The translations under genes and the position numbers were made by a program. From a virus: 39,531 nt of DNA. The notes below the pieces were generated by a model. The model saw only the letters and a list, made by a program, of their open reading frames with translations, ran no database searches and had not been told where the DNA came from. Location of the stretch: IMG/VR virus record IMGVR_UViG_3300030419_004201, positions 1 through 39,531 of that record; one strand, given 5' to 3'. Of the stretch, positions 3,216 to 39,531 are shown one piece after another (positions within the stretch are counted from its first letter, which is position 1; each line of letters opens with the position of its first letter).

Positions 3216-4361
3216 TCATTGAAGGTCACGGATAGAACCTCCTGCACCGAAGAAAGAGTCCCATACCTCACCCATGGTTCGGTAGAGTCCCTCTTGGCCT
3301 AGTCTGTTGATAGCGAACGGGTCGCCGGTTTCGATACCCGACTCGAAGTATTGGGTCGGGATAGCAGTCTGGAACCACAGATAGTCTGTATCGAAGTAGT
3401 AAATCCTCGAGATTCCACTCGTGTCAGTCACTACATCCTTGGACGGAATTAGTGGTACACCATTGTAGGTAGCCACAATGAATCCGGCCTCGATACCAGG
3501 CACACCCTTCACACCGTTGTAGGTAGGAGTGACCCTCTTCGATTCCATGAATCTCTGCTGGCTCTGCAATAGTTGTTGTACACGCATTAGGGTATCGTAC
3601 CCAGTCAGCATGACCTTGGGGTTACCACCACGAACCCAAATCTGCTGGAACAGTCCGTCCAGTTGATTCAGGCTTAGGTTCCTGTTAGTGTTAGCCGCAC
3701 TCGATACATCTACCTCAGCACTGTGGAAGTCGGAACTTCCATCTCTTGTGATAGAGTATATGTCGTGGTCTGTAGTAGCACTCACATGCCCTGTACTAGT
3801 GGTCATGGAATCTGGGTCCGAGGTTAGTCGGTCCAGAGACTCGAAGTCGTTAGCCGCTGGGGTCTCAACATCTACCAATAGCATCCTGTTAATGTGGTCA
3901 GCGTGATGCTTACCCATTTCCTCCTTTAGCACTTGGCGCACATCTCCAAGACCATCGTCCTTATCAGAAAGGAACATGGAAACTTCGCTCAGGTCGAACG
4001 AGTGACCAATAGTCTTAGGCTTTGCAGCCACATGCAGGAAGTCAGGCTTTGTGGTGTCGGGCAGTGTGGCGTTCTCAGCCAGACCTCCGCCAACATCAAA
4101 CGAAGGCTTGGCGGTAATGATTCGCCATCCACTTCGCTCCCACGGCTTCTTTGGTAGAATACTGAACGCATTGAACTCTTGGTTCAATTGCGACCAAACC
4201 TTCCTACCATAGATTGCCTGGTAAGTACCAGCCGTAGTGCTCAGAAGCGGGGCATCCGCCTTGAGTATATCACCACTGCTGTATGTGTACCCGGTCAATG
4301 CGGTACCACCGTAGTAGTATCGCTCCATATCCTGTATTGTTCTTACATATTCACGCGCCAT
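3216..4361 (-). CDS. Major capsid protein, HK97 fold
   Basis: This 381-residue protein would form the icosahedral shell. It lies directly after the protease-scaffold gene, with a 1-nt TGATG overlap and a strong GAGGTGAT site. Matches to the fold by eye are an N-terminal arm (residues 1-50), then NAFSILPKKPWERSGWRI, an E-loop/P-domain-like section with ENATLPDTTKPDFLHV, a long helix around VRQVLKEEMGKHHADHINRML, and an A-domain-like section NPKVMLTGYDTLMRVQQLL with GIEAGFIVATYNGVPLIPS. No long delta scaffold domain precedes the shell sequence. This agrees with the scaffold being part of the protease gene. Whether the N-terminus is trimmed (for example near DILKADAPLL, residues 32-41) is unknown. 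Confidence 0.9.
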   Translation of the reverse strand: MAREYVRTIQDMERYYYGGTALTGYTYSSGDILKADAPLLSTTAGTYQAIYGRKVWSQLNQEFNAFSILPKKPWERSGWRIITAKPSFDVGGGLAENATLPDTTKPDFLHVAAKPKTIGHSFDLSEVSMFLSDKDDGLGDVRQVLKEEMGKHHADHINRMLLVDVETPAANDFESLDRLTSDPDSMTTSTGHVSATTDHDIYSITRDGSSDFHSAEVDVSSAANTNRNLSLNQLDGLFQQIWVRGGNPKVMLTGYDTLMRVQQLLQSQQRFMESKRVTPTYNGVKGVPGIEAGFIVATYNGVPLIPSKDVVTDTSGISRIYYFDTDYLWFQTAIPTQYFESGIETGDPFAINRLGQEGLYRTMGEVWDSFFGAGGSIRDLQ

Positions 4362-5752
4362 CAGTTATCACCTCTTAGTGCTGAGGAAGCCAATCGGTGG
4401 ACATCGTCCCACGATAGTGCGGCCATCTCAGTAGTCTCGGGAATGTCCACTGTTGAAATATCTGCCGATTTAACAATAGTCTCACTCGACTCAGTAGTGA
4501 TATTTTCAATTCTATCACTCAGAGCGAGAACTGCCTTCTGCAGGTCTTCCAGAGGACCACGAGCATCGAATGCGGACCTGTTAGTCTCATCACTCTCTGC
4601 TGCTATTTCCTTCTGCAGTCTCAAGGAGAACTCATTACCTAGGTCTGTCTTAAACTGCTGCTCTAGAGCAGCGGCCTTGTAAACCTCGTAAGCCTCCTCT
4701 ATCTGGGATTGAGTAACCATGTCACGGTTGATGAACTCGTCGGTTTTGATAACCGTCTTGTTACCACTAGGAGCAGCACCCATATTCATCTTGGGGCGCT
4801 TACCCGAATCATCCTCTCCAGCACCCTCAATACTGCCTTGACCTCTGTGGTCGTAGCCGTGGGCACCTTCTTGGAGGTATGCTTTCTCGACACCTTCTTT
4901 ATTCTCAAAGTGACCACGAGCAGCCGATGGGTCATACCCAGCGGATTTCACAGTCGACTCGAGCCACTGAAGGTAATCTGTGGTAATCACATCATCCATT
5001 TTCTCAGTTTTCTCAGAATCCTCAGACTTTTCGTCGTCTTTGTCTTTCGCTACATCTGCCTTTTCTTTGTCTTCCTTGTCTGCATCTTCTGAAGCCTTCT
5101 CAGCCTTCTCATCTGCAGCCTTTAGAGCGGCTTCTGTCTCATCGACATCATCCAGTCTCTTGGACAACCTTTCCAAAACATCTTGTAGTTCTGTCATTGC
5201 GTCTGTCATTTTTTCACCTTTATCTATATTTTCAGTTTTGTCCTCTTTGAGGATTCGGAATTGGGCTTCAGGATTGATGCCCTTCTCGCAGATGGTCACT
5301 TCATGCAGTTCCATTCTGCGTATTTCTCGGTAATCTCCCTTCTCGGAGTTACTCTTGTTAACGCGCTCAAAAGCCTGACCGCCTATGGAGAATGACTTCA
5401 ACTTCCCCTTACGGATTTCAGCAGCAACTTCTCGCGCCTTTTCGATATCATCACGAAGTTGGATGACCACAAACATACCAGTGTCATCTACTTCCGACTT
5501 CCAGACTCTCCCACTAGAGTCAGTATAGTCTGGGATTACTTCCCCAACTTGAATATTAGAATGTGCTAGTTGTACATTCCTAAAACCTGGAGAACCCATA
5601 AACTTCTTGAATGCTTCACGAAGTGCCTCTTTAGTAATCAAATCGCCTTGTTTGTCCACCATTTCAACTGAAGCATAGCCTGCAACAACTAAATCACCAC
5701 TTCTACCTTTGATGAGAATAGGACTCTCTAGCGGTGCTTCCATCATGAGCAT
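4361..5752 (-). CDS. Prohead protease fused to scaffold-like C-terminal region
   Basis: This 463-residue protein should assemble inside the prohead, guide shell formation and digest internal proteins. Residues 18-165 are a serine protease of the HK97 gp4/XkdF type. The likely catalytic residues are H64 in VQLAHSNIQVGEV, S122 in LKSFSIGGQA and E151 in MELHEVTIC. Residues 180-255 are a highly charged Lys/Glu/Asp coiled-coil-like tract typical of scaffolds. The remaining C-terminal region to 463 is helical and ends with AALSWDDVHRLASSAL. That tail resembles the W-containing terminal motif of other proteins in this window. Protease-scaffold fusions are known in several phage groups. No good ribosome binding site is seen, and ATG 5746 or 5743 could also be the start. 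Confidence 0.85.
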   Translation of the reverse strand: MLMMEAPLESPILIKGRSGDLVVAGYASVEMVDKQGDLITKEALREAFKKFMGSPGFRNVQLAHSNIQVGEVIPDYTDSSGRVWKSEVDDTGMFVVIQLRDDIEKAREVAAEIRKGKLKSFSIGGQAFERVNKSNSEKGDYREIRRMELHEVTICEKGINPEAQFRILKEDKTENIDKGEKMTDAMTELQDVLERLSKRLDDVDETEAALKAADEKAEKASEDADKEDKEKADVAKDKDDEKSEDSEKTEKMDDVITTDYLQWLESTVKSAGYDPSAARGHFENKEGVEKAYLQEGAHGYDHRGQGSIEGAGEDDSGKRPKMNMGAAPSGNKTVIKTDEFINRDMVTQSQIEEAYEVYKAAALEQQFKTDLGNEFSLRLQKEIAAESDETNRSAFDARGPLEDLQKAVLALSDRIENITTESSETIVKSADISTVDIPETTEMAALSWDDVHRLASSALRGDN

Positions 5753-5784
5753 TAACCGAGTCAGATATTCTTATGGTATATCAA

Positions 5785-12648: not shown

Positions 12649-12660
12649 ACCATCACCACC
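12649..12660 (-). promoter_or_regulatory. Ribosome binding site that decides a GTG start
   Basis: On the minus strand GGTGGTGAT ends 3 nt before GTG 12648, and the GGTGG core is 7 nt away. This matches 8 of 9 bases of GGAGGTGAT. The nearby ATG lies in another frame, so GTG is the start of the giant gene. Confidence 0.6.
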
Positions 12661-12666
12661 GCCTTA

Positions 12667-13374: not shown

Positions 13375-13730
13375 TGGTCCACCGGCCTTCCTTCTGCTAC
13401 TGCGGCCTGTTCAGCCATAGCGTGAATCTCGTCCCAACCCATATCATGCCAATCTTGGTTATTGGTAGGAGGCTCTACCATAATCCCATCAACCATAATC
13501 GCTGCCTTCTCAATGACTTCATTCCTATCGCCACGAAGTGGGTCACCCCACACATCTTCAGTTTCAGGGGTTGAAGCCTTCACATAACCAGCCTTTTGCA
13601 AAAGCATGCCCGGATTAGAAACCATCTTTCGCAGTTCTATATTCTGTTCTTTGAGTACACCAATGTCACCATCCATACGCTCCATTTTAGTGATAAGAGC
13701 GTCCACTAGAGTAGTGACTTCTTCACTCAT
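13371..13730 (-). CDS. Small coiled-coil protein upstream of the giant protein
   Basis: This 119-residue protein is joined to both neighbours by 4-nt overlaps. Residues 1-40 form a likely coiled coil (LVDALITKMERMDGDIGVLK, then EQNIELRKMV). LLQKAGYVKA follows at about residue 43. The C-terminus carries MGWDEIHAMAEQA, a degenerate form of the W-x-x-[LI] terminal motif seen in other proteins here. There are no cysteines or membrane segments. A small scaffold-like or adaptor role during head assembly is plausible from coiled coil and position, but the function is not known. Confidence 0.65.
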   Translation of the reverse strand: MSEEVTTLVDALITKMERMDGDIGVLKEQNIELRKMVSNPGMLLQKAGYVKASTPETEDVWGDPLRGDRNEVIEKAAIMVDGIMVEPPTNNQDWHDMGWDEIHAMAEQAAVAEGRPVDQ

Positions 13731-14086
13731 TGACCATCAACCCTCTGCCCAAACCCGTGTTGTGGTTGCCAATTACTCTGGATTCCATCAGGTCCAATAT
13801 AGCCTAGAGGTCGGTCCCCCTTGATTAGAGAGCCTTGGTCTTTGAACTCCATTACAGGGGCCCCTCCGGCATAGATATCATTTACACCAAGAGTAGATTC
13901 CCCATCAGTCTGTGATTTGTAAATTGATGTGACATCCTCTGCTAGGTAATCACTAGTTTGACTTAGTGCTCTAAGCAATTGTTGTGCTGACACTAGGTCA
14001 TCATTCTTCAGAGCCATTTTGAACTCTGCCATTGTTGTTTCTAACTTTCTGACCATTGGGTCCAACTTGATAATCGGCTCAGTCAT
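13727..14086 (-). CDS. Small hypothetical protein downstream of portal
   Basis: This 119-residue protein follows portal after a 30-nt gap. Its N-terminal half is helical (MVRKLETTMAEFKMALKND, then LVSAQQLLRALSQTSDYL), and its C-terminal half is Gly/Asp/Gln-rich. It contains GSLIKGDRPLGY, one of several hydrophobic-K-G strings in this cluster. It overlaps the next gene by 4 nt. No domain is recognised. Its place directly after portal suggests a head-assembly partner. Confidence 0.6.
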   Translation of the reverse strand: MTEPIIKLDPMVRKLETTMAEFKMALKNDDLVSAQQLLRALSQTSDYLAEDVTSIYKSQTDGESTLGVNDIYAGGAPVMEFKDQGSLIKGDRPLGYIGPDGIQSNWQPQHGFGQRVDGQ

Positions 14087-14116
14087 GACGCTCGCATACC
14101 CCCTCTACACTTCAAT

Positions 14117-16066
14117 CTATCGCGGCAACCCACCTTTATTCTTGTCTCCTAAAGGATTGGCCCCCGCCTCTTTAGCATCCTGTATTGCATCAAGAGCCTG
14201 CTCCATAGGGGTTTTCTTACTACCCCTCTGTTGAGTTTTAGTTGCTCCGGTAGTTGTACCTGATTTCGCATCTACTCGCTTGACAGGGGCTATTCGACCA
14301 TGTCTTAGACCTTGACCTTCAGAGTCTGACCCAGCACCTAGGCTTTTCCTAGTAATTGTGGCTGGCATTCTACGAGCATCACCTGGGTGGAAAATATGTT
14401 GACCTGGTGGTCTGACAGGGGGAGTTTGGCCCGCAGGTGGTGGTGGTGGTTGACCTCCACCTGCTGGCATGGTCATAGGGCCTCCCCCTGCCATTGGAGA
14501 TATCGGTGGTGGAGGCATAGCACCTCCCCCTTGAGGTGGAGCCATTCCAGGTGGCATTCCTCCTGCATCAGGAGGTGGCATACCACCCCCACCACCTTGT
14601 TGCATGGCCGCTTGTTGTTGAGCAGCCAATTCTTGTGGGTCAGGCTTCTTGTAAACGAATCTAATATCCCTACCTGCATCTTCTGTAAGTTCAGGCTGGA
14701 ATCCTAATTGGGCCATTCTTTGAGCAATATTGACCTCTTGCTCATCTCTCCTTAGACGAGTAACTTCATCTTCTTCCTCATTCGGATAGAGAGTCATTTC
14801 CCAATCTGTCACCCCCATCTCACTGAAGAGCCTCGGGAAAATATCACGAGAGTATAATTTCTGACCAAACTCTACAGCCCTATTGGTCACCAGAATCTGA
14901 AGACCCTCATTATTCAGGCCCCCACCCTTACCAGAGTCCATCATGAAGATATTAGAAACACCATAGAATGCTGCTATGCGCATGCGTAGTTCATCTCGAA
15001 CTGCACCATATTGCATTTCGTCAAGGGTGTCCATGAATCTGACGAACTCAACACGACCCCTCCCTGTGGCAGACTCTACCCCCACCTTAGGGATGTAGTT
15101 CGGGTCACGCTCCATCTTTTCCTCAGCACCTTTCCAAAATGCTGCAGTGGACTGAATATTATCAGTAGTAATAGATAGCACACCTCTTGGGATTCTACGC
15201 TTCTGATAAGCGAGATACATATAATTGTCCATAGCCGTGAGAGTCATGGCTTGTCTCCACATCGTGGCTACCGGACTACGACCATAGAGTTTGGAAGGGC
15301 TGAATTTTGAAATATGTACAATCTCACCCTCGATATAATATTGGGTCTTACCAGAACCAGCGGTATTGATGAAATGCACATCTTGTAATGCTAATTTGCA
15401 TATCTCACATTCTTTCTCCTCATCTGAGAATGGGTAGGTCTTATCTCTATGGACTGGGCAAATTAGATACCTGCCCCCTCTAGTACCTCTCTTATCTGCT
15501 ACAATTCTCATGAAGGTGGGGTCACCACGCATCATTTCCTTCACCCTATAGAAGTCAATCTTACCAGTATCTGCATCTAGGAAATACTCTTTAATGAGAA
15601 CTATAAAACCATCATCGACAATATCCAAATCCCATTCAACTTCTCTTAACACATCAGTAAAGGATTGGTCCATCCCATTTCTCTGTTTGACAAACCACCT
15701 AGGGTACAAGATTTGGTCAGGGTTGGGAGACGAGAACTCAACACCACCGCATATCCTACATTCAGACACAGTGTCGTGCTGATACTCTTCCTCGCACTGG
15801 ACACACTTCTTGTGGAACTTCTTCTTCCAATAATGGCCCCTCCTGAATATCTCCTGACAAAGAGTATTAATTGTAGTTCTGAGGATGATACTCTCCTGCA
15901 CTGTGGCATATAGAGCAGGGATGCTAACACCCTGAACTAGGACAGGCTCCTGTATGCCAGCCTTCCAAAGAGGCATTATCGGCTCGGGGGTGGTTTTCTT
16001 CCTACGATTACCAGTTAGCCTATCAATGAACCTAGCGACCATGCCCTTGTCATCCTCACCAGCCAT
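14117..16066 (-). CDS. Portal protein with two inserted zinc knuckle pairs
   Basis: The 649-residue portal forms the ring through which DNA enters and leaves. Portal features include the stem and wing region from SIPALYATVQESIILRTTIN, IVHISKFSPSKLYGRSPVA, and RMRIAAFYGVSNIFMMDSGK with a following LNNEGLQILVTNRAVEFGQK. Two metal-binding insertions are unusual: C88/C91 with C103/C106, and C203/H206 with C220/C223. The tail from about residue 470 is very rich in Pro, Gly, Met and Gln and then becomes basic. MPLWKAGIQEP near residue 31 may be a processing or docking site. The start overlaps the previous stop (TAATG), and GGTGGTGA precedes it. The portal call is firm. Confidence 0.9.
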   Translation of the reverse strand: MAGEDDKGMVARFIDRLTGNRRKKTTPEPIMPLWKAGIQEPVLVQGVSIPALYATVQESIILRTTINTLCQEIFRRGHYWKKKFHKKCVQCEEEYQHDTVSECRICGGVEFSSPNPDQILYPRWFVKQRNGMDQSFTDVLREVEWDLDIVDDGFIVLIKEYFLDADTGKIDFYRVKEMMRGDPTFMRIVADKRGTRGGRYLICPVHRDKTYPFSDEEKECEICKLALQDVHFINTAGSGKTQYYIEGEIVHISKFSPSKLYGRSPVATMWRQAMTLTAMDNYMYLAYQKRRIPRGVLSITTDNIQSTAAFWKGAEEKMERDPNYIPKVGVESATGRGRVEFVRFMDTLDEMQYGAVRDELRMRIAAFYGVSNIFMMDSGKGGGLNNEGLQILVTNRAVEFGQKLYSRDIFPRLFSEMGVTDWEMTLYPNEEEDEVTRLRRDEQEVNIAQRMAQLGFQPELTEDAGRDIRFVYKKPDPQELAAQQQAAMQQGGGGGMPPPDAGGMPPGMAPPQGGGAMPPPPISPMAGGGPMTMPAGGGQPPPPPAGQTPPVRPPGQHIFHPGDARRMPATITRKSLGAGSDSEGQGLRHGRIAPVKRVDAKSGTTTGATKTQQRGSKKTPMEQALDAIQDAKEAGANPLGDKNKGGLPR

Positions 16067-16410
16067 TATTCACCACCATGTTCCATATCCTTAGGCCCTG
16101 CAAGTATTTCTGCAATAGCCTGTTCAACCTTCTGTCTCTGAAGTTCCTTTGCTTCTTCTATAGTCATTGGACCTGTATATTTAGGATTTGGTTTCTTTGT
16201 ACCAGTTTCAGGGTCGAAAATGTATTCATCAGGTCTCCCCCACTCATCTTCATCTGTGAACATAGCGTTTTCTCTCGCATTCCATTGCTCTATCCAACTT
16301 TCAAAATTGTCTTTATCGTATACCTCACCAGCGTGGAATCTCTCATCCCATTCTGGAGAGCCTACTTCTATGTCACCTTTGAGAAATGACCAAGCCTGCT
16401 CTAATGCCAT
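16066..16410 (-). CDS. Small acidic protein with N-terminal AW-x-x-LK motif
   Basis: This 114-residue protein begins MALEQAWSFLKGDIE. That is nearly the same as the N-terminus of the 451-residue protein at 19254-20609 (MSELDQAWQFLKDYR). The rest is acidic, with Trp and Tyr (FESWIEQWNARENAMF, EWGRPDEYIFDPETG). It ends in a charged helix, IEEAKELQRQKVEQAIAEIL. It overlaps both neighbours by 1 nt, and a GGTGAT site precedes ATG. Its function is unknown. The shared N-terminal motif suggests it belongs to the same group of proteins loaded into or bound to the prohead. Confidence 0.7.
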   Translation of the reverse strand: MALEQAWSFLKGDIEVGSPEWDERFHAGEVYDKDNFESWIEQWNARENAMFTDEDEWGRPDEYIFDPETGTKKPNPKYTGPMTIEEAKELQRQKVEQAIAEILAGPKDMEHGGE

Positions 16411-17855
16411 CAGATATCACCTACTAAACCACTCATATCGTCAACAAGCCTGATGACCTCGGGGTCACTCTCACCCCACGAGAGGACCTCTTGTTCATCA
16501 ACATTCCACTCATTTAGGAGTTCTTCAGCCTTAACATCCTTCCAATTCTCCCATTTGACCAACTTGAATAGTTCATCCCTGCGCTTGACAATCATGTCCC
16601 CATCCCTTCCTCGCAAATCAAGAAGTTCCAAGACACAGCCAGCCTGCCTCTTCTTCAACCTAAGATGAGGTTTAATCCCAACCAACAACTTCCTCAAATC
16701 ATCAGCACTGTAGAACTGTAAACGATGCTGACTTCTCTTACTATTCTTATGGACTTTGAGGTCTAACTGTAAGACACCACAGCCCAATAAATCATGTATC
16801 TGTTCACAATGGGCTCTACCTCTCTCCCCAGTGGCAATTATTCCAGCCCTAGGTTCACCGCGCTTTGAGATGGTGATATACCCATCAGCGTCAAGGAAAC
16901 CAGCAGTATAAGCCCAAGGGTCTTTGATAACATCAGAAGAATCTGTAGGTAATAATTCCCACTCACTATGGTTTTTGACAATATTATATTCAAGCCCATA
17001 GGTTTTGAGTAAAGCGCCTAACTTCTGCACTGAAAATGACTTATTCCTACCATCTAAATGGGACATATTTTCCAAAAGGACTCTAGAATCCATAGGACCT
17101 TCACGAGATAGGATGTCTGCAGCAGTGTTAAGGTAAGCAGCCTCAGATTTAGTGAGGCTGTCTACTTGGTGCAAAGTCCCTCTCCACATTTGTTTAGATT
17201 CCTTTCGCTTACTGATTGATTCTACCCACAACTGCCTTTGCTCAGCGTCCCAAGCACCTTCTACCTGTGAAAGCCTCTTGATAATGTCATTAGCATTGTC
17301 CCATTGTAGACAGGCTTGCCTAAGTGATATCTCACGGTTGTTACCATACTTTCTCAATGCTTTGAGGTCTCGCTCAGTAATACCGAAACCCTTGATGGCA
17401 TCTAAATGGCCTGAAGCCCAAGATAAATTATCTAACACTGTTTCGATTTCAGCCTTTTTGGCTTTTCTAACAGCGTCTATCAATTCATCAATGTCTGTAG
17501 AATATTGTTTGTGTACTCTTCTTTTAGCACGAAGGTCTTTGATGAGTTCAGATGCAGTCTTTCCGAATTGGTCCTCGAACCAACCTTCTACTACCTTATC
17601 CTCACTAAGTTGTAGGAGTTTTTTGCGCCGTTCCTCTTCTTCTTTTGGGTTCTTTATTGGTGGTTGGGCAGGGGTCAGTTTCCCACCCCCAGCCTTAGGT
17701 GTAACAGGGGCATCCCCAAACGCTGGTTGCTCTATAGTACCATCTTTGAATAAGGGGTGTTGCATGAGTTGTTTGATAACCCAGGCTTTATCGACATCAA
17801 CCTCATCAGTATCAGCGTCATAATCGTCGCCGATTAGCGTAGTGGCCCAAGTCAA
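16410..17855 (-). CDS. LAGLIDADG-domain protein with long N-terminal extension
   Basis: In this 481-residue protein, residues about 310-425 are a single-motif LAGLIDADG endonuclease domain. The motif AGFLDADGYITI keeps the acidic residues. It is followed by the typical GERGRAHCEQIHDLLGCG and LRLKKRQAGCVLELL sections. The first 300 residues are not usual for a homing endonuclease. They contain AWVIKQL near residue 23, a Pro/Lys-rich linker, charged helices, and a winged-helix-like section just before the nuclease domain (SVQKLGALLKTYGLEYNIV). It overlaps terL by 4 nt and sits between terL and portal. A free-standing homing endonuclease fused to a virion protein, or a domesticated DNA-binding domain, are both possible. 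Single-motif enzymes act as dimers. Confidence 0.75.
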   Translation of the reverse strand: MTWATTLIGDDYDADTDEVDVDKAWVIKQLMQHPLFKDGTIEQPAFGDAPVTPKAGGGKLTPAQPPIKNPKEEEERRKKLLQLSEDKVVEGWFEDQFGKTASELIKDLRAKRRVHKQYSTDIDELIDAVRKAKKAEIETVLDNLSWASGHLDAIKGFGITERDLKALRKYGNNREISLRQACLQWDNANDIIKRLSQVEGAWDAEQRQLWVESISKRKESKQMWRGTLHQVDSLTKSEAAYLNTAADILSREGPMDSRVLLENMSHLDGRNKSFSVQKLGALLKTYGLEYNIVKNHSEWELLPTDSSDVIKDPWAYTAGFLDADGYITISKRGEPRAGIIATGERGRAHCEQIHDLLGCGVLQLDLKVHKNSKRSQHRLQFYSADDLRKLLVGIKPHLRLKKRQAGCVLELLDLRGRDGDMIVKRRDELFKLVKWENWKDVKAEELLNEWNVDEQEVLSWGESDPEVIRLVDDMSGLVGDI

Positions 17856-19249: not shown

Positions 19250-19253
19250 ATTT

Positions 19254-25213: not shown

Positions 25214-25216
25214 TTA

Positions 25217-26874: not shown

Positions 26875-26878
26875 ATTA

Positions 26879-27595: not shown

Positions 27596-27601
27596 TCACG
27601 C

Positions 27602-27847
27602 TTACACCCAACCGCCGACTGTGTCCTGAGCCCATGCAATAAAGGAGTCTACTGTATTTTCCCATAGACTCATATCAGCATTGCTCTCTACAGCCGAAGT
27701 GATAAACACTGCTCCCGTAGTGAAAACAATAGTTCTGAACCAACCCCAACTATACTCATAATAGTTATCGAGTGTATTCTGCCAATGAAGAGCCTTCAGG
27801 GTCGCTTCAGTGGCATCATCACTAGGGGTCTTGAAAAGCCATCCCAT
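27602..27847 (-). CDS. Small one-pass membrane protein
   Basis: In this 81-residue protein a single hydrophobic segment lies at about residues 36-53 (WFRTIVFTTGAVFITSAV). Trp-rich flanks suit a membrane interface (HWQNTLDNYYEYSWGW and FIAWAQDTVGGWV). It lies between the coiled-coil membrane protein and the GTPase with gaps of 4 and 6 nt, so it should be co-expressed with both. No known family is recognised. Confidence 0.65.
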   Translation of the reverse strand: MGWLFKTPSDDATEATLKALHWQNTLDNYYEYSWGWFRTIVFTTGAVFITSAVESNADMSLWENTVDSFIAWAQDTVGGWV

Positions 27848-27851
27848 TCAA

Positions 27852-28409: not shown

Positions 28410-28483
28410 AGTTCTTCCTCAGCGGTGCGATAGGCTAGGACCTCATATATTCTCCGGTTGGAAGGTTGACCGAGTTATCGTTT
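28410..28483 (-). promoter_or_regulatory. Largest intergenic gap, probable promoter for the GTPase block
   Basis: This 74-bp gap follows the giant 2907-residue gene. On the minus strand, CGGAGAATATATGAG at about 28443-28457 resembles an archaeal BRE-TATA element. A start site about 25 nt downstream would leave a 15-nt leader holding the GAGGAAG site. A CGGT/ACCG inverted repeat lies upstream. A bacterial -10/-35 pair is not apparent. Confidence 0.4.
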
Positions 28484-31400
28484 TTATCTGATAATTTCAA
28501 TATTCTTAAGAATCTCATCCCAAGCAAGTGACATCGGTTCACCTGTTTGGACTTCATCATCATCATCCCATACTGCTGGTGGAGGAGTTGGTAATGATGG
28601 ACCTGTTATCTGACCAGCCTCTTCTGTACTCAAAATGCCCCTGTCATCTCCTCTTTCTGGGAGTGTAGGTAAGTCGATTCCTAGACCTCCCAAAGTTTGG
28701 TGTAACCTCTGATTATAACTCTCAGCATGGTCTAATCTACCTTCATTATGGGCTCTAATAGTCTCATCATGGAAAGCCGCAGGTGTGAATAACACATCTT
28801 TACTAGCCATGTCCAAAGGCTCTTCTATCCCAAATGTGCCTTCTTCTTTACCACCAGAAGAATATTTGAAATGGCCATCAGCACGCTTGTCCAGGTTATC
28901 CATTTGGGCAGCGAAAATCTCACCAGCGGTTCCCATCACACCATCTTTTACTGCCATATGGCCGTGCTTAGGGCCCAAATTCCCATCTAGTATTCTCTGA
29001 GCCCGCTCTCGACCATCTCCAACACTACTAGTCAAGAAAGAGCCGTGCCCCATAGTCAAAGGTATATCACGAATCATTCCAGGCTGAGAAGGGTCGGCAA
29101 TCTCTAATCTGTAAACTTTATTGCCTGTTTGCTGCTTGTTCAAGAGAGCGATAGGCTCCCCCTCATCTGTTATAGTATCAAAAGATAGAAGCATACGAGC
29201 GTCTCTTAATCTTGTTTTATCATTATCATTCAATTGTCTTTTCTTACCTAACCTATCAATAGTCTTCTTAGCGCTCGCAAATCTCTTCTTCAAAAATGGA
29301 GATGGTTTCCAATCAGGGAGACGACCTTTACTCTCAGCAGGGCCTGGGCTACCTAAATCAGCAAACGACCTAGCACCAGTTATTCTAAACAATTCTCTGA
29401 TTTGACCCCCACCCGTACCAGCAGCCAATAACGAAGTAATATCTTGAGCCATTTTCTGTGCAGAACGATAACCTTTGAATCTCGCCTTTTTGAATGTGGG
29501 GTGTTTCCAATGATTACCAGAGAAGAAACCAGAGTTCATAGTAGGCACTAGAGTGTTTGGGTCCAACAATGCTCTCAATTGATGTTCAGCCTTATCTGCC
29601 AATTTCTTGTTTTGAACACTGGTCATATTGCTTATCTCTGGTGCCTCCCCCTCTCCTCCTGAAAACCCAGACATCCCAGCAGCCGCAAGCATGGATAAAG
29701 AGAACCCAGACCCTCCTGCAGATAGCCTCAAAGCATGGACTGCTTTCTCAAGAGCATCACCTTTGATGGGTTTGAATGACGAATCATCTCCTTCAAAGCC
29801 TTCTACAATATGATAGTTAGGCCTGTGATATTGTACTATAGCATACTTATCCCAACCAGCATCTATAGTCCCCTCTCCACCCCCATAAAGCCTCTCTTTC
29901 GTGGAATCACCTAAACAATAATGACCATCATCTAGTGCGACACAATTATTGCATTGGACAGGATTGTTTTCCCGGTCTAAATAAACACCTTCACCCTGAC
30001 ACTGTGGACACTTAATCAGAGCGGGGTCATGACCACCCATTTTGGCGACTGATTCTGCTCTAGCCCTCAAAGAACCTCTATTGTCTAAGGCTGAGGCAAT
30101 CCAATTAAGGCCGTCCATATTAAGTAAACCACCCCAATTTTGGCTTGGGTTGATATAATCCCGATTAGGTTCACTAAAACTAGCAAAGCAAGATGGGCAG
30201 CGACCTTCTTCTACATCATCTCTACTGAGTTTCATAAAACACTGTGGGCACACTGATTGTGGGTAAACACCTTTCAAGTAAAGATTAGTTTCACCGACAC
30301 TCACCTTGGTACCATGCTGAGGGTTGGTAGGGTCAAAACCATGTGGGATATACATCAAAGTGGAGATGTCATGTGGAATGGCCCCAGTGTGTGTGCCTAA
30401 ATCCATTGGTGTATGAGGTATTTCTTGACCACTGTGCTCATCAACAATATCAGGGTGGGTGAAATAAGGGATGTGCATATCTAACTGTGGGAAGGAGTCC
30501 ATATATTCCTGAACACCCTCGTTAAGTATTTCGTCCCATTCTTCTTCTAATTCTTCTCTCTTCTTCTCTAGACCATCTTCATCAAGCCTTGTTTTCATTA
30601 AGTGTTCATACTCTTTCTTGTTTATATCCCCGTTCTTAAGTCTCTTTCTCAATACATCTGGCTGTTCTTCTTGATATTGTCGCTTAAGCCTTCTGAGTTC
30701 GATAAACTTCTCTGCCGTTAAACCTCTCATCTTATCTCGAAAAGCCACTCTATGTGTGTCCTTTTCATTTTCAGGTATGCTATGAGGGACAGTACCATAA
30801 GGTATAGTGCCCACCATATTGAAACCTAAGGCGAGCATTCTCTGAACCCCTTCCATACCTCCATAATACTGTCTAGAGGGTATTTCATACCCTAAAGCCT
30901 CTTGCATACGCGGACTCTTCATTAATTCAGCGTGGTTTGGGGCTTCATTATCAGTCTCCTGTAATTCTAGCCTTTGCTTACCTCCCCCGACATGAAGAGT
31001 ATGTTCACGAAGTCTAGTAGCACCACAGTATTTCTGGTCTGTCGGGATAATCTGGGAACAACCGGGGTACCCACATTCCCCAAATACAGGTTTCTTACCA
31101 CCTTCCCACTCAGTGGGTTTAGGTTTCTCCCCTTCTTCCAATAATGGGGGTTCAGGTTCAGAAGTTCCATACCTCCCCCATTCGTCCATTGAGTCTTTCA
31201 AACCCTCGAGTTTTCTGTCTTGAGCCTCAGAACCAGCAGGGACTCCCCAACCCTCCTGTGGTGGAGGCCCAATCTGACTCTTCTCTCTTCCTCCCGCGCC
31301 CCAGAACTCATTTGCTGTCATCTTCTCTAATCGCTTGTCAAAAGGGGTAGTACTTCCCATACCACCAGTCTCACTATACCAAGGGTCACGGATGGAGTAT

Positions 31401-34400: not shown

Positions 34401-37207
34401 GCACTCAAAGATTGACCAATCTTATCACGAATCTCATTTCCTTTAGCGTCTGGGTTTTCTAAGATAATCCTCCTCCTCAAATCCATAAGATTCTTCTTTC
34501 TGAGCATCCCCCCTCTCACTTGACCATCCTTACCCATGAACTCTGTATGCAAATCGTTCTTATGCAATAAGATATGAGTACCATTAGGTAATATCCCATA
34601 TTCTACAAACATGGCTAAATCTCTAGCGTGTTGCTCTTTCCTTTGGGCGTTACGAATCGTGGAATGATACCTTTCTAACGATTTAGCCATACCATCTAAG
34701 ACTTCTTTAGTTGACTGACCTTCTACATTAATACCATGTAGGACTTTATTGATGAAACGCTTTTCGTTAAAGTACTCACCTTCACCATCACACATCATAC
34801 AATCTACCCCGAGATACTGGTCTTTACCTGTAGGCTGCCCAGTTTTATCATCAATACAATCAGTGCAAGGAGTAGTGAAACCTGCCCTTCTAGCCTCTCC
34901 AGTGATATTTCTCCTAAGGTTATCTTGTAACTGCTCATATTCCTTATCGAACCCTTGAATAATCTCAACCTTCTTCTTATCAGAAAGGGGGGCTTTTATA
35001 TCTGCACCGGGAATTTGCTTACGCCCTTTACATCTTCTACATTGGACCATGCGCTTACTCCGAGGGTGTTTCTTAACTTCACCCGTAGCACCACACGCAG
35101 GGCAATCAACTATCGAAGGGGCTAAAATTTCTGTTTTATCTCTACCTCTATAGTCTCTCCTAGTACCTAAGCGCTCTGCTATTGCTTTCTTCCCTGCAGC
35201 GCTTTCTAGAATGAAATTGTCATCCCTTCTATTATTATAACTGTCAAAGAGAGCCCTTCTTAATTCATAAAATCTCTTGCCCTCAGGGGTACCATCGTAA
35301 GCCATCTGTTTCTGCGCGAACAACAATAACGCAGGAGATATCCCGGTGCTTCTAGCACTTTCATCATACAACCTCGATTTATCTTCTCTCTTTTTGCTAA
35401 ATTCTTCTTGAGACTGTTTGAATATATGTTCTTGAGTACCCTTGGTAAATGGGACGAAGAGACTATTGACAAACGAATGTTCTGCCAGTTTTCTTTCCAT
35501 ACCATCCTTAGTGAGATATCTAGGGTTGCTTGGCGATAAAGCATTTTTACCAGTGGAGTCATCAACCCTTTGGTGCAAATCCTCTACCCAACTGTCGTAC
35601 CTATCCTTATTCTCAATAACCTCGCTTCGTATAGTGTGGGTTGGAAAAGGTGGTTTACCCGAAACAGTTCTTCTAGGTCTAGGGTCGAATGCCCCATCAT
35701 CAGGACCACCTTCAGCAGGCCCCTCAAAATAATCTTCAGCCTCAAGCGAATCAGGTTCTATATCGTCTCTTTCTTCTTTATCAGGCTCTCCGGCGTAGAC
35801 GCCTTGCCCCCCAGTAGACGCCTGACCCCCTTCTGCAACCTCCAAAGAGTCGAAGTCACCAATTTCTTGAGAAGGAGGGGCCGAAGGGCGAGTCTCTTCA
35901 GTAAGATAGCGATACAACTCCCGAGAGCCCCACCTCCCAATAATTGAAGGGTCTTTCATATCCCCTAAGCCTCTGCTAGCAAGAGCAGACTTCTCCCCCT
36001 CAAAACGGGCAATCTCTCCCATAAGGTCCTCTCTTTCTGATTTACCTACCTTCCAATTATGAAGGAATATAGGAAGGAGAGGCTGCACTGTACTACCAAA
36101 ATCAATTTGACAGCCCAATATTGTCATTCTAACCTCAGGTTCCAAGGACTTCCAATAATTGGTTAAACGATGGTATCTACTATCTAACTTACCATCTATC
36201 TCTTGTGGAACCTGTGGACTAGACATGATAATGCCGGTAATGTCCCTCATAGCATTATGAACATTATCAGCGTGTTCGAGATTTCCATACCCACTCATGT
36301 CACTCCTATCACCCATTCTACTATCGGCACTCGTTGTTGTTGAACCATCATAGCCCAAAAGGTATGGGCAATCACAATCGGCAACATGTCGGTAAGTTGA
36401 ACCACCCTTATTGGGACACTCTTCGTCGTGTAACTTGAAATTGCTCATATCTCTGATTATGTCAGCACAAGCATGGTCATGGTAATACTGTTTCAGAACC
36501 TTCAACTCATTTTGTCTGTAGACTTCCCTCTCAATATTCTCTCTATCCTCTTCTGGTCTCTTACGCATCCTAAGTTCGATAGCCCGCTGAGTGCGCCAAT
36601 GGTTATTCTTAGCATCAATTGAGCGTTGAAGAGTCTTTACTTCAGCCGCTTTACTGTCATCAAACTGGTGAGGGTGTATCTCAGCCAACTCTTTGGCTCT
36701 CTGCGCCCAAGCACTTTTCACTCCTGGTTTTTGTTGCGATTTTAGAGCCAACCAATTTTTGGAAGTCTCATAGGCATTAGTTTTCTCATATCTCTTGTAA
36801 TGCTCTTCCCCTAATCTGGTATGAAGGCGCTCTATCTCATTCCAGACTCTAGGGTTAAGGAAAGCGGTGTTATCCTCTTTCACTGCACTTATGATAGGCT
36901 CCTCTTCATATTCTATCTTGTCACCAACATACTTGAACCCAGACTTACTAGCCAGTTCCCAATTAGGAGTATAATTACGAATAATTTCGTACAGCCTAAG
37001 GAACATATGTTCATCGTGACGATGGGCATTTAGAATGTGTTCAGCCTCTAACCCATTTTCACATCTTAGTAAGTCGGCAATGAGTTCCTTCTCATTCTCA
37101 TCAGGCGCTTTACCTAAAGCGGCTTTGAGCATTGAACTCTTCAGAATCTCCCAAGAAGACTCTACAGGGTCAATCAACACATGCCATCGCAAGAGGGCCC
37201 ATCGCAT
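28484..37207 (-). CDS. Giant 2907-residue protein with multiple DnaJ-like zinc knuckles
   Basis: I use ATG 37207. TTG 37210 would add one residue. The interior is hydrophilic and Asp/Glu/Arg/His-rich without membrane segments. At least nine Cys clusters occur, near residues 700-735, 780-810, 1003-1035, 1078, 1206-1252, 1730-1838, 2047, 2320-2340 and 2400-2425. Several are of the CxxCxGxG type found in DnaJ (CMMCDGEGEY, CGVCHGKGW, CNACDGIGH, CSGCDGHGG, CPQCQGEG). There is no J domain. SSWEILKSSMLK near residue 20, NWLALKSQQK near 150 and SLAWDEILKNIE at the C-terminus carry the shared W-motif. The first 260 residues are Lys/Glu/Arg helices. The size, tags and head-cluster setting suggest an internal virion protein. 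A tape measure is less likely because it lacks hydrophobic segments. Confidence 0.8.
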   Translation of the reverse strand: MRWALLRWHVLIDPVESSWEILKSSMLKAALGKAPDENEKELIADLLRCENGLEAEHILNAHRHDEHMFLRLYEIIRNYTPNWELASKSGFKYVGDKIEYEEEPIISAVKEDNTAFLNPRVWNEIERLHTRLGEEHYKRYEKTNAYETSKNWLALKSQQKPGVKSAWAQRAKELAEIHPHQFDDSKAAEVKTLQRSIDAKNNHWRTQRAIELRMRKRPEEDRENIEREVYRQNELKVLKQYYHDHACADIIRDMSNFKLHDEECPNKGGSTYRHVADCDCPYLLGYDGSTTTSADSRMGDRSDMSGYGNLEHADNVHNAMRDITGIIMSSPQVPQEIDGKLDSRYHRLTNYWKSLEPEVRMTILGCQIDFGSTVQPLLPIFLHNWKVGKSEREDLMGEIARFEGEKSALASRGLGDMKDPSIIGRWGSRELYRYLTEETRPSAPPSQEIGDFDSLEVAEGGQASTGGQGVYAGEPDKEERDDIEPDSLEAEDYFEGPAEGGPDDGAFDPRPRRTVSGKPPFPTHTIRSEVIENKDRYDSWVEDLHQRVDDSTGKNALSPSNPRYLTKDGMERKLAEHSFVNSLFVPFTKGTQEHIFKQSQEEFSKKREDKSRLYDESARSTGISPALLLFAQKQMAYDGTPEGKRFYELRRALFDSYNNRRDDNFILESAAGKKAIAERLGTRRDYRGRDKTEILAPSIVDCPACGATGEVKKHPRSKRMVQCRRCKGRKQIPGADIKAPLSDKKKVEIIQGFDKEYEQLQDNLRRNITGEARRAGFTTPCTDCIDDKTGQPTGKDQYLGVDCMMCDGEGEYFNEKRFINKVLHGINVEGQSTKEVLDGMAKSLERYHSTIRNAQRKEQHARDLAMFVEYGILPNGTHILLHKNDLHTEFMGKDGQVRGGMLRKKNLMDLRRRIILENPDAKGNEIRDKIGQSLSAAFNKADENHGHLGFFLRDAVHSPWFEELCEMLSYDKHLPDYPEAIEQRVKNHLGKINNPGRFDTRSSAIPCGVCHGKGWAREKGTGNYKEGVNCPACVEREYLGDGQYLERSTGIQRYSKQTMVPAVTDNHLMRDGTPACHCCGNGHNQRVSQGLGIKSKVFHNPSDINSEALILAHEYRRLHDDIVAKMHMYLENPTEDLKSQIEMLNLNLEDLVMRESNEFNAALGSDYGEALDKHRREGFSDFGTGKAIEESMGTDDEMTPENTHCPFCMNAAKSLDPPMLVTGSTSLDVPYLGDEDGYHNASGIGRRGQGCPNDPQNEDGQTIYQQLVEYEMLPPELQKIQDASWARGPFLDEIQDKDENFDTIMSISPEQKAEWEAEGKDFIEEYRKMRQGRRREKLQGPRRRQHVGDLDFAKYAALRRRSQRPTPQELFTHKFHSRYFDSNAHRDTLPGMSEYDRENYTDGEAFLDKIEREDILEPENDDELRRLYAIHILAPDYLVGTHGNPLYLTAGETNIEELPPGLRMGDEKSMQDWARKTLGLDKGEKINSVHRNELKTGLHLIAPLLVAEKEWKYHYLGPRAEWAEEHGWPESIFNISDSSEPFIIPENIERVFGELKGHYRDCQDSLMYGHYSPDHHGFMPTTEHFPDMALFLNNRNMPVDIAQAWIDHHPGLDDPEHELYQKTNGLMATKGKTLEEMRWLANSIFGKLTGRMWELGDKDIFPLSLEDLVKSYGDGESVEHAMEDAWERVHDMLMRRSTDPEGSKRALRANMPIRNRSNLNPWGYATACNACDGIGHMNVEDFVHFAPAFIDFRTSEGERSYLALDSAGRPIISNGEIHYGDPRVLQFFRDNARPHTHKNWEDHPNFDADNPTWFVDDEHMKLQCPACEGTHVCSGCDGHGGVSLSEREAEKLHMGKQFLAGQSMECWGIETKLPTKPFEPTELIVNPANAKINQMPEEITGDYVDNNSLLSETRPRSTGRLYFEERDDEGNLTGMVYSIRDPWYSETGGMGSTTPFDKRLEKMTANEFWGAGGREKSQIGPPPQEGWGVPAGSEAQDRKLEGLKDSMDEWGRYGTSEPEPPLLEEGEKPKPTEWEGGKKPVFGECGYPGCSQIIPTDQKYCGATRLREHTLHVGGGKQRLELQETDNEAPNHAELMKSPRMQEALGYEIPSRQYYGGMEGVQRMLALGFNMVGTIPYGTVPHSIPENEKDTHRVAFRDKMRGLTAEKFIELRRLKRQYQEEQPDVLRKRLKNGDINKKEYEHLMKTRLDEDGLEKKREELEEEWDEILNEGVQEYMDSFPQLDMHIPYFTHPDIVDEHSGQEIPHTPMDLGTHTGAIPHDISTLMYIPHGFDPTNPQHGTKVSVGETNLYLKGVYPQSVCPQCFMKLSRDDVEEGRCPSCFASFSEPNRDYINPSQNWGGLLNMDGLNWIASALDNRGSLRARAESVAKMGGHDPALIKCPQCQGEGVYLDRENNPVQCNNCVALDDGHYCLGDSTKERLYGGGEGTIDAGWDKYAIVQYHRPNYHIVEGFEGDDSSFKPIKGDALEKAVHALRLSAGGSGFSLSMLAAAGMSGFSGGEGEAPEISNMTSVQNKKLADKAEHQLRALLDPNTLVPTMNSGFFSGNHWKHPTFKKARFKGYRSAQKMAQDITSLLAAGTGGGQIRELFRITGARSFADLGSPGPAESKGRLPDWKPSPFLKKRFASAKKTIDRLGKKRQLNDNDKTRLRDARMLLSFDTITDEGEPIALLNKQQTGNKVYRLEIADPSQPGMIRDIPLTMGHGSFLTSSVGDGRERAQRILDGNLGPKHGHMAVKDGVMGTAGEIFAAQMDNLDKRADGHFKYSSGGKEEGTFGIEEPLDMASKDVLFTPAAFHDETIRAHNEGRLDHAESYNQRLHQTLGGLGIDLPTLPERGDDRGILSTEEAGQITGPSLPTPPPAVWDDDDEVQTGEPMSLAWDEILKNIEIIR

Positions 37208-37216
37208 CAATCTATC

Positions 37217-37402
37217 TCAAGGTTTGAGAGATTTCCAAGCCACATCAAAAGCCTTCCTGGTAATACCATGGCTTGGGTAGTCTTTCCTATGGAACTCTAG
37301 AGCCACTCTCTTGCTAGGTAGTTTCTTGCGGGCCTTTTTGGGCTTCCATCCATGGGCGATAGCAGCCATCATGGTCTTTTGTTTAGGACTTACCGAACCC
37401 AT
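37217..37402 (-). CDS. Small basic protein ending in AW-x-x-LK
   Basis: This 61-residue protein begins MGSVSPKQKTMMAAIAHGWK and contains a Lys/Arg-rich centre (KKARKKLPSKRV). It ends DVAWKSLKP. Short basic proteins that open with a PKQ-x-x-MMAA-x-AHG-like pattern are frequent in phage genomes, usually near structural genes, with no assigned role. It overlaps the upstream stop as TAATG and stops just before the giant gene. The C-terminal motif is the same as the tag seen on its neighbours, so a packaged DNA-binding peptide is a reasonable guess. Confidence 0.7.
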   Translation of the reverse strand: MGSVSPKQKTMMAAIAHGWKPKKARKKLPSKRVALEFHRKDYPSHGITRKAFDVAWKSLKP

Positions 37403-38475
37403 TAGATATCGCCATCATTCTCACCAGAGACTATTGATGGGATGCCACTATTACCCCGACCATGCCCAGGAGTGTCAGTCTTATGCGAAGTGATATGAGC
37501 AATCATCTCATCTAGTTTCTCACCAGCCCTCATCATAGGCTTGATGTTTTTACTGTGATTAGGGTCATGAATAGCGACCCCTGGTGTTTGGACTGCTGCT
37601 GCTAATTTACTCCTGAACTCTAAAGCGTCTGGTAATATTGAATCAAACCACTGCTGAGTAGACTGGTTATTCACACTCAGACTATGGTCCATCTCAGCCT
37701 TACGCCTTTTGGATTCAGGGTCATCAGTTTGAGGCCCATCACCACCCGATGTGTTTTGAGAACTGTCAGGCATGAATGAAGTGCCAGAGGAACCTTGCTC
37801 ATTCCATTGCGCGGTAGTCAGCGCTTGATTCTTAACCAGAGACCACCAATTATCATGTGAAGTCTTTATCTCTTGTTGACTAGACACTAACCCTTTTTGG
37901 TCGTCAATTATGTCTTGCCTCCTTAGTCGAGCAATTTCTTCTCTCCTATCCTTTTCTTGATTATAAGTGCTTATTAGTGACTTCAACTTACCCGCAATCT
38001 CTGCTGTCTCAGGACTATCTGGGTCTAGATTTCCAAAGCCACCAGCAGTTAAAGTCGGGAAGCCACCAGGGCCACCCGTCTCCATAAGAGGTTCACCTTC
38101 TACGAACTTTTTACGGTCTGCATCCAATCTCTCGAATCGCTCATCTTCTAACTTACCACGAGTCTTTTTACCCATTCGGAGTTTGTCGTCCTCATCCCGA
38201 TGAGGAGGGGCATGTTCCAACCATTCTTTGAGGTCTAAATCACTATGTAACCTCACTAGAGTTTCCAACTCTGATTCATTTAAGTCACCTTTCCGCGCTT
38301 TCCTCTGTAGTGCGAAATATTGTTCGGCACGAGATTGCATCTCTCGCATCTCATCTTTGAGATTTCTACGAAACTCAGAGGGTTCACTTGGGAATTCATT
38401 CCAGTCCGCGGTCTTAGCCCTCTCATGAAGACGCCTTAAGTCCTTGAGAATGTCGTCAGTAGTAACTCCAAACAT
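37402..38475 (-). CDS. Hydrophilic coiled-coil protein with W-motifs
   Basis: This 357-residue protein is almost wholly charged helix in its first half (EFRRNLKDEMREMQSRAEQY, then LHSDLDLKEWLEHAPPH). Around residues 205-225 is DNWWSLVKNQAL, a form of the shared motif, and near 275 is QQWFDSILPDAL. Gly/Ser/Asp-rich linkers separate these parts. No cysteines, membrane segments or catalytic motifs are visible. It precedes the 61-residue gene with a 1-nt overlap. A structural, possibly scaffold-interacting role is inferred only from helices and motif copies. Confidence 0.65.
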   Translation of the reverse strand: MFGVTTDDILKDLRRLHERAKTADWNEFPSEPSEFRRNLKDEMREMQSRAEQYFALQRKARKGDLNESELETLVRLHSDLDLKEWLEHAPPHRDEDDKLRMGKKTRGKLEDERFERLDADRKKFVEGEPLMETGGPGGFPTLTAGGFGNLDPDSPETAEIAGKLKSLISTYNQEKDRREEIARLRRQDIIDDQKGLVSSQQEIKTSHDNWWSLVKNQALTTAQWNEQGSSGTSFMPDSSQNTSGGDGPQTDDPESKRRKAEMDHSLSVNNQSTQQWFDSILPDALEFRSKLAAAVQTPGVAIHDPNHSKNIKPMMRAGEKLDEMIAHITSHKTDTPGHGRGNSGIPSIVSGENDGDI

Positions 38476-38515
38476 GGTGACCTACACCCCCCGGAAAGGG
38501 TATGACTCTATGAGA

Positions 38516-38908
38516 CTATTGTTCAACCTCATGGTGACCTACATATCTATGCTCAGGGGGTGGAAGGTCTTCGACACGGGTCACACGGACCCCAGTTTTC
38601 TTTCTTCCATAAGGTTTCTTACCTCTTAACCCTACAACAGTGAATTTACCCTCTCTACCCCTATTCCTCCCAAATTGTTGGACAAGTCTCGAATCTGGTC
38701 CTTCTGGCTCGTTTGCAACAGACCATTGTTTGTTTTTGGGGAGTTTTATGTCGTCTGCTAACCATTTTTCCCTATCATCCGGTGGATATGCAGTCCAATT
38801 GACTACTGGGGGCACTCCGGGCCACCCTGTCTCTTCAGAAAGTCGCCAATCGTGCTCTGGAAGAGTAGTTTGGCGCTTGAGGACAGCCCACCAACCAAAC
38901 ATGTTCAT
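38516..38908 (-). CDS. Trp-rich small protein with N-terminal W-motif
   Basis: This 130-residue protein begins MNMFGWWAVLKRQTTLPEHD, so the W-x-x-L-K motif is at its extreme N-terminus. Trp and Pro are frequent in the first half (EETGWPGVPPVVNWTAYPPD). The second half is basic (RNRGREGKFTVVGLRGKKPY). There is no Cys pair or membrane segment. TGAGGG lies before ATG. The function is unknown, and nearby proteins with the same motif suggest a common localisation. Confidence 0.65.
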   Translation of the reverse strand: MNMFGWWAVLKRQTTLPEHDWRLSEETGWPGVPPVVNWTAYPPDDREKWLADDIKLPKNKQWSVANEPEGPDSRLVQQFGRNRGREGKFTVVGLRGKKPYGRKKTGVRVTRVEDLPPPEHRYVGHHEVEQ

Positions 38909-38924
38909 TTGGCCCTCAGGTTAG

Positions 38925-39383
38925 TCATGCCCTCTTCGGAAACTCTCTACACTTAGGGCAAGAGCCTTCTTCCATAGGGTGGCTTCTAACTAATTCATGA
39001 ACTTTCCCACCCCATCCACAAGAAGGGGCACAAGCGATATCAGTCTCACCTTCAGTGAGATGGTTCATGAAGTCCTCATATTCTTGCTGCCAGTTATTTT
39101 TGTACGCACCTGCCCTGTTAGCAAATTCTGTTCTCTCTAAAGCCAGTTTCACTGAATTGGGGTGGATTTCTTGCCCCAAAATTCTTGATAACCATGCAGC
39201 CCCTTTTTCAGGCCCGGATTGTTCAGCCCTGCCGATAGGGTCAATCTCTACATTACCAAAATCCTCAAACTCAGGTTTATCATCTGGTTGTGCATTTTTC
39301 AATAACTCCCAGGCCTCACCCAATGCATCTCTGCTTTGTAGCAAAGTAAATCCTTTGAGGTAGTCGCTATCTGACTGTTCCAT
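38925..39383 (-). CDS. Small protein with W-motif and C-terminal zinc knuckles
   Basis: This 152-residue protein contains DALGEAWELLKNAQ at residues about 19-32. The C-terminal 35 residues hold ACAPSCGW and SCPKCREF, a C-x3-C and C-x2-C pair about 20 residues apart, likely one zinc site. The middle is a helical acidic section (KLALERTEFANRAGAYKNNW). The start overlaps the previous stop as TAATG. The function is not recognised. It combines two recurrent features of this cluster, the W-motif and a zinc knuckle. Confidence 0.65.
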   Translation of the reverse strand: MEQSDSDYLKGFTLLQSRDALGEAWELLKNAQPDDKPEFEDFGNVEIDPIGRAEQSGPEKGAAWLSRILGQEIHPNSVKLALERTEFANRAGAYKNNWQQEYEDFMNHLTEGETDIACAPSCGWGGKVHELVRSHPMEEGSCPKCREFPKRA

Positions 39384-39531
39384 TAGTAATCCTCCCCAGT
39401 ATTATTCATCCCAGCATCTCTACGCCTAGCATCTACTGATTCTTGCGGTTCTTCTGGGTGGTTCATACGGAACATGGATGGTATGGCCCCTCTTACCCTA
39501 TTTTTGAGATTTTGCCAATAAGAGTTTCTTA
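39383..39531 (-). CDS. C-terminal end of a gene cut by the window edge
   Basis: An open frame enters from the right edge and ends with TAA at 39383-39385, overlapping the next ATG. The 48 visible residues include YWQNLKNRVRGAIPSMF, again with W-x-x-L-K, and a hydrophilic tail rich in Glu, Asp, Arg and Asn. The packing and the shared motif support a real coding end. Nothing can be said about the rest of the protein. Confidence 0.55.
   Translation of the reverse strand, partial: RNSYWQNLKNRVRGAIPSMFRMNHPEEPQESVDARRRDAGMNNTGEDY

Follow-up and report, generated by a model that had tools for sequence, protein, structure and literature searches.

A short lysine-ended peptide recurs on otherwise unrelated head-region proteins of magrovirus-like archaeal tailed viruses and is probably a capsid-targeting tag

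The window analyzed here is the whole 39,531-nucleotide stretch of IMG/VR virus record IMGVR_UViG_3300030419_004201, a 39.5 kb fragment of a virus in which almost all genes lie on the minus strand, and the element in question is a short peptide tag that ends in lysine and recurs on proteins encoded there. A preliminary description, made from the letters of the window, had listed a set of such peptides, all of which exist. The genes and tag copies needed for what follows are given below, with a slash standing after the lysine of a proposed site.

3216..4361, minus strand: major capsid protein (MCP), with the conserved DILK/ADAP at residues 31-38 (4248-4271) and Lys34 as the proposed maturation site
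4361..5752, minus strand: S78 prohead protease with a fused scaffold-like tail, with invariant Lys15 (5699-5719), Lys290 and Lys428
14117..16066, minus strand: portal protein, a context gene
17852..19288, minus strand: terminase large subunit (TerL), a context gene
16378..16407, minus strand: ALEQAWSFLK, N-terminal tag of a 114-residue protein (residues 2-11; 29.4 bits)
20574..20603, minus strand: ELDQAWQFLK, N-terminal tag of the 451-residue protein encoded directly upstream of TerL, retained by orthologs whose bodies are 33-37% identical
19266..19295, minus strand: PLDAAWALLK, C-terminal tag of the same 451-residue protein; the gene directly upstream of TerL is tag-ended in many relatives
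37139..37168, minus strand: PVESSWEILK, N-terminal tag of a 2908-residue giant protein
28505..28537, minus strand: PMSLAWDEILK, C-terminal tag of the 2908-residue giant, with one extra residue between Trp and Lys
37223..37252, minus strand: AFDVAWKSLK, C-terminal tag of a 61-residue protein
38876..38902, minus strand: MFGWWAVLK, N-terminal WW variant of a 130-residue protein, with similar MNWWxxLK N-termini in relatives
39297..39326, minus strand: ALGEAWELLK, near-N-terminal tag of a 152-residue protein
1100..1129, minus strand: PIDLSFAMLK, tag in a 239-residue protein (19.4 bits)
37831..37860, minus strand: SHDNWWSLVK, internal in a 357-residue protein, a possible variant tag

YWQNLK was also found, in a gene cut by the right edge of the window. 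Among the 34 minus-strand open reading frames (ORFs) of the window, the motif [ASG]W..(.)[LIVMF]K matched eight times, each time within 30 residues of a terminus, whereas shuffling within proteins led us to expect about 0.2 terminal matches (maximum 2); the narrower AW..[LIVM]K matched five times against 0.17 expected. Some details of the preliminary description had to be revised. PIDLSFAMLK lies outside the range that it gave for the tag, 4361-39531, and was missed, WWSLVK of the 357-residue protein is internal (residue 211) rather than terminal, and two supposed degenerate forms, AWVIKQL in a 481-residue protein and EWDGILEK in a 2287-residue protein, fall below the tag threshold.

Relatives were sought by an MCP-based scan, which found at least 595; 80 loci were kept. 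The motif of the preliminary description, [ASG]W..[LV]K, was applied unchanged to 28 relatives, a set from which the near-identical partners G001, G018 and G020 had been excluded. On the MCP strand it gave 156 matches against 11.7 expected from shuffles, 111 of them within 30 residues of a protein end, so that the recurrence at protein ends, described beforehand, is borne out and the tag is conserved in related genomes. On the opposite strand the same motif gave 11 matches against 7.0 expected. A reversed motif on the MCP strand stayed near expectation (13 versus 8.5), as did one with Lys changed to Arg (11 versus 11.5), while changing Trp to Phe or Tyr left 71 matches against 27.7 and 41 against 21.1, respectively. 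These counts indicate that Trp is preferred and Lys is strict, with the Phe and Tyr forms in weaker excess. An origin of the tag by chance or composition is excluded by the shuffles together with the reversed and Lys-to-Arg controls. The full tag can be written approximately as x-P/A-[FMIL]-[DEN]-x-A-W-x-[LVF]-L-K-x, and a position matrix for its ten-residue core gave, at 13 bits or more, 273 matches against 1.8 in shuffles across 32 contigs (182 effective sequences after weighting); this matrix was trained and scored on one set, the 28-contig motif test serving as the independent test.

With the matrix threshold at 11 bits, 290 matches were found on 230 proteins. Of these, 276 are on the MCP strand and 14 on the other (45.9 versus 7.1 per 100,000 residues), 131 begin no more than 15 residues from the N-terminus where 23.8 were expected, and 23 fall within 15 residues of the C-terminus, against 23.8 under uniform placement, all of these tag counts including partly redundant metagenomic contigs that were not dereplicated. 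The commonest form, M-N-P-F/M..., stands at the N-terminal start itself, and because gene starts were taken from a simple ORF caller, some seemingly internal tags that follow a Met may be true N-termini. Placement at either end, as had been proposed, stands, but C-terminal enrichment as a class is unsupported; what is seen there is clustering at the exact end, where 19 of 25 C-terminal tags leave just 1-4 residues ahead of the stop. Some C-termini, including those of the giant protein and of the gene directly upstream of TerL, use a second spacing that is longer by one residue (AWDSLLK). The bodies encoded by this last gene (19254-20609 in the window, and its counterparts in relatives) differ among subclades, and within one large subgroup most contigs have a tag at its C-terminus (AWALLKIGE, AWDSLLKGLNIR, AWDALLKGL). 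Tags are thus a feature of late, head-region genes, with some carriers encoded outside the core head cluster.

The proteins that carry the tag have little else in common. With tags masked, clustering of the 230 tagged proteins gives 130 groups of bodies, which excludes descent from one common protein and agrees with the claim of the preliminary description that the tag is a modular element on otherwise unrelated proteins of the structural gene region. Orthologs of the 451-residue protein and of the 2908-residue giant retain both end tags although their bodies are only 33-40% identical. Two or more tags are carried by 39 proteins, and 42 of the 99 segments of these proteins have homologs among the segments of single-tag proteins, the homology often beginning at the first residues past the tag; segment 2 of one multi-tag protein (G063_6), for instance, is 94% identical over 127 residues to a stand-alone protein (G060_12). 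It follows that tag and body form an exchangeable unit, found as a separate gene or in serial fusion, and, judged from the sequences, the internal copies of the tag are fusion junctions. Shuffling and fusion of units at the tag would also be expected if the conserved element were DNA, a recombination or regulatory element translated at gene ends and promoting the shuffling of small genes. However, synonymous codons differ freely among tag copies, which places selection on the peptide, and conservation follows amino-acid classes, with Lys but not Arg tolerated at the last position; we regard a DNA-level element as disfavored to the point of being scarcely credible.

Database matches for 97 tagged proteins were few and comprised GNAT acetyltransferase, SLOG (YspA-like), HD phosphohydrolase, ParB-like, zinc finger and DUF5872. 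In appearance, most tagged bodies are proteins that, once injected, would work inside the host, and the range of domains is that described for phage polyvalent proteins, which phages are predicted to package and inject (PMC5512222). By eye, some bodies appear ADP-ribosyltransferase (ART)-, HipA-like kinase- or metallopeptidase-like. Tagged proteins with a YHGT motif are ART-like in appearance (L235:8473-8946, L251:771-1229, L306:3838-4770), but PDB profile searches for ART-like and ParB-like bodies gave no significant match, and the ART reading is therefore an impression from motifs. In several multi-tag proteins (for example L235:11813-14695), an internal tag is followed by the same C-terminal unit, a basic one of 80 residues, SPEAKRHKLEYDKKYE...RARHFKxKGTLR, which also occurs tagless; perhaps it accounts for the DUF5872 matches.

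The tag is restricted to one viral lineage. The order TerL-portal-protease-MCP is the same in relatives of 80-118 kb, DNA polymerase B (PolB) is on the opposite strand in all three of the longer relatives tested, and among named isolates the haloviruses HCTV-1 and HVTV-1 come closest (33% MCP identity). With the lineage's MCP, portal, TerL and prohead protease present and PolB on the opposite strand in those three longer relatives, the window and its relatives fit, by their gene content, magrovirus-like archaeal Caudoviricetes, for which Poseidoniales would be the putative host; magroviruses of marine group II archaea have been described (PMC10160649). A strict N-terminal pattern at the DNA level, M-N-P-[LIMVF]-[DENK..]-x-A-W-x-x-L-K, matched 93 viral contig stretches and had no match in cellular genomes among 84,980 species, which excludes a motif shared with the host. 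Among 43 further contigs with this pattern, 37 contain the lineage MCP and the other six encode proteins of the same lineage, so that these six, which have no head genes, do not constitute a separate lineage. No tag was found in the head-region proteins of HVTV-1 and HCTV-1. Several head-region proteins of these haloviruses (L309 8080-16868, L310 7583-17313) share a module of approximately V-Y-[VI]-x-S-P-x-E-A-P-E-x-x-x-V...GG.Y, perhaps an analogous element.

The end of the tag has a counterpart in proteins without it. Among untagged proteins, two hydrophobic residues followed by Lys are enriched in the 20 N-terminal residues, 5.6-fold upstream of TerL and 6.1-fold from TerL to MCP; elsewhere there is no clear enrichment, the ratio being 1.5 at 4-9 kb past MCP, 1.3 in tail genes and 0.94 in opposite-strand genes. 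Three such short sites in the window are listed here.

22157..22174, minus strand: IPILK/G, N-terminal short site of a 526-residue protein
23467..23481, minus strand: RVLK/N, N-terminal short site of a 437-residue protein
14057..14077, minus strand: PIIK/LDP, N-terminal short site of a second 119-residue protein

In MCP, L33, K34, D36 and P38 are invariant in 31 of 31 sequences, Leu33-Lys34 precedes Ala-Asp, and Lys-Ala-Asp is kept in HVTV-1 and HCTV-1 as well; neither the PDB nor the literature yielded a maturation site for HVTV-1 MCP. In the protease-scaffold, K15, K290 and K428 are invariant in 28 of 28 sequences despite variable surroundings. A predicted structure places Lys15 directly before the first strand of the protease domain, which resembles human cytomegalovirus (HCMV) assemblin (E 3e-3), and Lys428 in a low-confidence linker. 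The N-terminal PLWK of the portal was considered as an additional site and excluded, its Lys being unconserved (PLYT and PLWT in relatives). These conserved lysines look as prohead-protease cleavage sites would, which is suggestive. Because MCP, protease, scaffold and further head proteins have this signature in common, the tag may, in addition to targeting or in place of it, be a processing site of the prohead protease. If that were its sole function, the tag would be a strong substrate site at which polyproteins are processed and propeptides removed, and would play no part in targeting. The strict Lys, the internal tags at unit junctions and the short sites in MCP, protease and scaffold all speak for this. 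By contrast, removing about 11 residues from small enzyme-like proteins would be pointless unless the peptide had a role, and neither the C-terminal copies nor the conserved P, F/M and W positions upstream of the Lys are accounted for, so we consider cleavage as the sole function quite improbable.

The reading that we favor, and hold to be fairly probable, is that the tag is a capsid-targeting tag of magrovirus-like archaeal tailed viruses, similar to the capsid-targeting sequence (CTS) of T4 and probably trimmed after its Lys by the S78 prohead protease. That this protease probably cuts after Lys is suggested by the end of the tag, LLK, which matches the signature at the conserved sites of the head proteins. 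Late in infection, the amphipathic tag would bind the inner shell or the scaffold and so draw tagged proteins into the growing head. The activated protease would then cut after hydrophobic-hydrophobic-Lys in MCP, in itself, in the scaffold and in the tags, a cleavage that would free N-tagged cargo and split multi-tag polypeptides into units. DNA would enter the head, and the cargo would later exit with it into the next host. More tentatively, and here our doubts outweigh our confidence, one ten-residue element may combine loading signal and protease site, such that any gene or fused series bearing it, at one of its ends or at the joints between units, could join the injected payload, its effectors being released inside the head by the prohead protease.

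Several observations weigh against the favored reading. Most tagged bodies have no database match, and the effector identities rest on the few matches described above. Hydrophobic-hydrophobic-Arg is also moderately increased in head-region N-termini (3.0- to 3.8-fold), and a structure model of MCP from 31 sequences reached a pLDDT of 38.5, too low to show a docking site. Tags at the C-terminus retain their Lys even though cutting at that point would take off only a few residues. This is easier to square with docking than with cleavage and makes docking without cleavage the main rival: the peptide would bind shell or scaffold in the prohead and stay uncut, as in encapsulins, with Lys as a specific contact. 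Besides the full motif at the C-termini, Trp and the hydrophobic positions carry in the position matrix as much information as Lys, beyond what a protease would need at P1, and the stretch reads, by inspection, as an amphipathic helix. Docking by itself, however, does not predict hydrophobic-hydrophobic-Lys without Trp at head-region N-termini, in MCP and in the protease, and we judge it unlikely to be the whole function. Finally, a kinase-like family on the opposite strand, HipA-like by eye, has a tag-like N-terminus such as MTIHDAWAFLKEEVRL (G028 19748-20416, L273:7082-7759, L301:9286-9945) and is the main exception to the late-strand rule. This family would suit a tag that binds a host or non-head partner (a membrane, or a host translation or DNA-packaging factor) and serves late proteins generally; yet the short Lys sites track head-region genes and not tail genes, and none of the cellular genomes searched contains the strict N-terminal form, leaving a non-head partner very improbable.

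Capsid targeting as proposed here has its closest parallel in the T4 CTS, carried by internal proteins and Alt, which is a short shared N-terminal peptide on unrelated, fast-evolving effector proteins of a tailed virus and is removed by the prohead protease (PMC3012670, PMC5694885). In the present viruses, too, a short terminal peptide is shared by unrelated proteins, its carriers are encoded with the head genes, and a prohead protease is present. The analogy to T4 drawn in the preliminary description thus holds in that diverse effector-like bodies share only the tag, and fails at the level of the motif, which has no homology to that of T4. The T4 protease cuts after Glu, whereas a cut after Lys is predicted here; given that the motif ends in an invariant Lys, the tag is not a member of the T4 CTS by descent and would be a functional analogue only. 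The tag differs further in standing also at C-termini and repeatedly inside fused proteins, and in belonging to an archaeal virus with an S78-type protease, in which targeting is putative. In T4 and SPN3US, the prohead protease takes off the CTS and the propeptides, respectively, by cutting at the motif that it recognizes (PMC3012670, PMC5694885, PMC10052503). The ejection proteins of the giant phages SPN3US and phiKZ are a second parallel, with N-terminal propeptides on functionally unrelated head proteins cut by the prohead protease and with two diverged paralogs that have identical N-termini (PMC5694885, PMC10052503), but those propeptides are mostly longer than 100 residues and end in AxE or SxE, while the tag has about 11 residues and ends in Lys.

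Encapsulin cargo-loading peptides are likewise short terminal peptides on unrelated enzymes bound for the interior of an HK97-fold shell (PMC8346489, PMC10960027). Unlike the present system, in which binding of tag to shell is putative, encapsulins are cellular compartments with another motif and no proteolysis; an encapsulin cargo-loading system is excluded by the lack of the strict tag in cellular genomes and by a shell made of viral MCP, with portal and terminase. In phage polyvalent proteins such as P1 DdrB, effector-type domains (GNAT, ParB-like, ART, peptidase) are serially fused and predicted to be head-packaged (PMC5512222). Multi-unit proteins are present here, with few domains confidently identified, but the tag recurs between their units, and the units are also found as tagged genes of their own.

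Two proteins near the head genes end in a motif of their own, at the following positions.

4388..4417, minus strand: LSWDDVHRLA, a motif distinct from the tag, at the C-terminus of the scaffold tail
13413..13442, minus strand: MGWDEIHAMA, near the C-terminus of a 119-residue protein encoded between portal and protease, the same motif as at the scaffold C-terminus

SWDDVHRL and GWDEIHAM had been taken for degenerate tags, but they belong to a separate conserved motif, [ED]MSW[DE][DE][VI]HxxA, common to the protease-scaffold and the 119-residue protein in almost all relatives, and these C-termini are excluded as tags. The motif resembles the tag core ([AS]W..[VL]), with His replacing the Lys, and may be the scaffold's own shell contact, a candidate shell- or core-binding element. 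Between TerL and portal, the 481-residue protein (16410-17855) has, over residues 314-415, a match to an HNH-endonuclease family (E 5e-9) and is possibly, by its sequence, a selfish-gene insertion or fusion. A giant protein is encoded between portal and protease (5785-12648 in the window), and its counterpart in the relative G039 (90766-96435) looks by eye to have a DNA-ligase adenylation domain near its C-terminus.

An open-access literature search found no paper that treats archaeal viruses and a capsid-targeting sequence together. If the favored reading is true, these viruses would have a capsid-targeting system independent of that of T4, and it would come with a concrete prediction of cleavage specificity for a group of S78 prohead proteases. 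Each tagged ORF would be predicted to encode a protein that is packaged in the head and probably injected, and the tagged bodies would amount to about 130 families of candidate effectors, the majority without a known domain. The virion contents of uncultured and very abundant marine archaeal viruses would thereby become readable from sequence.

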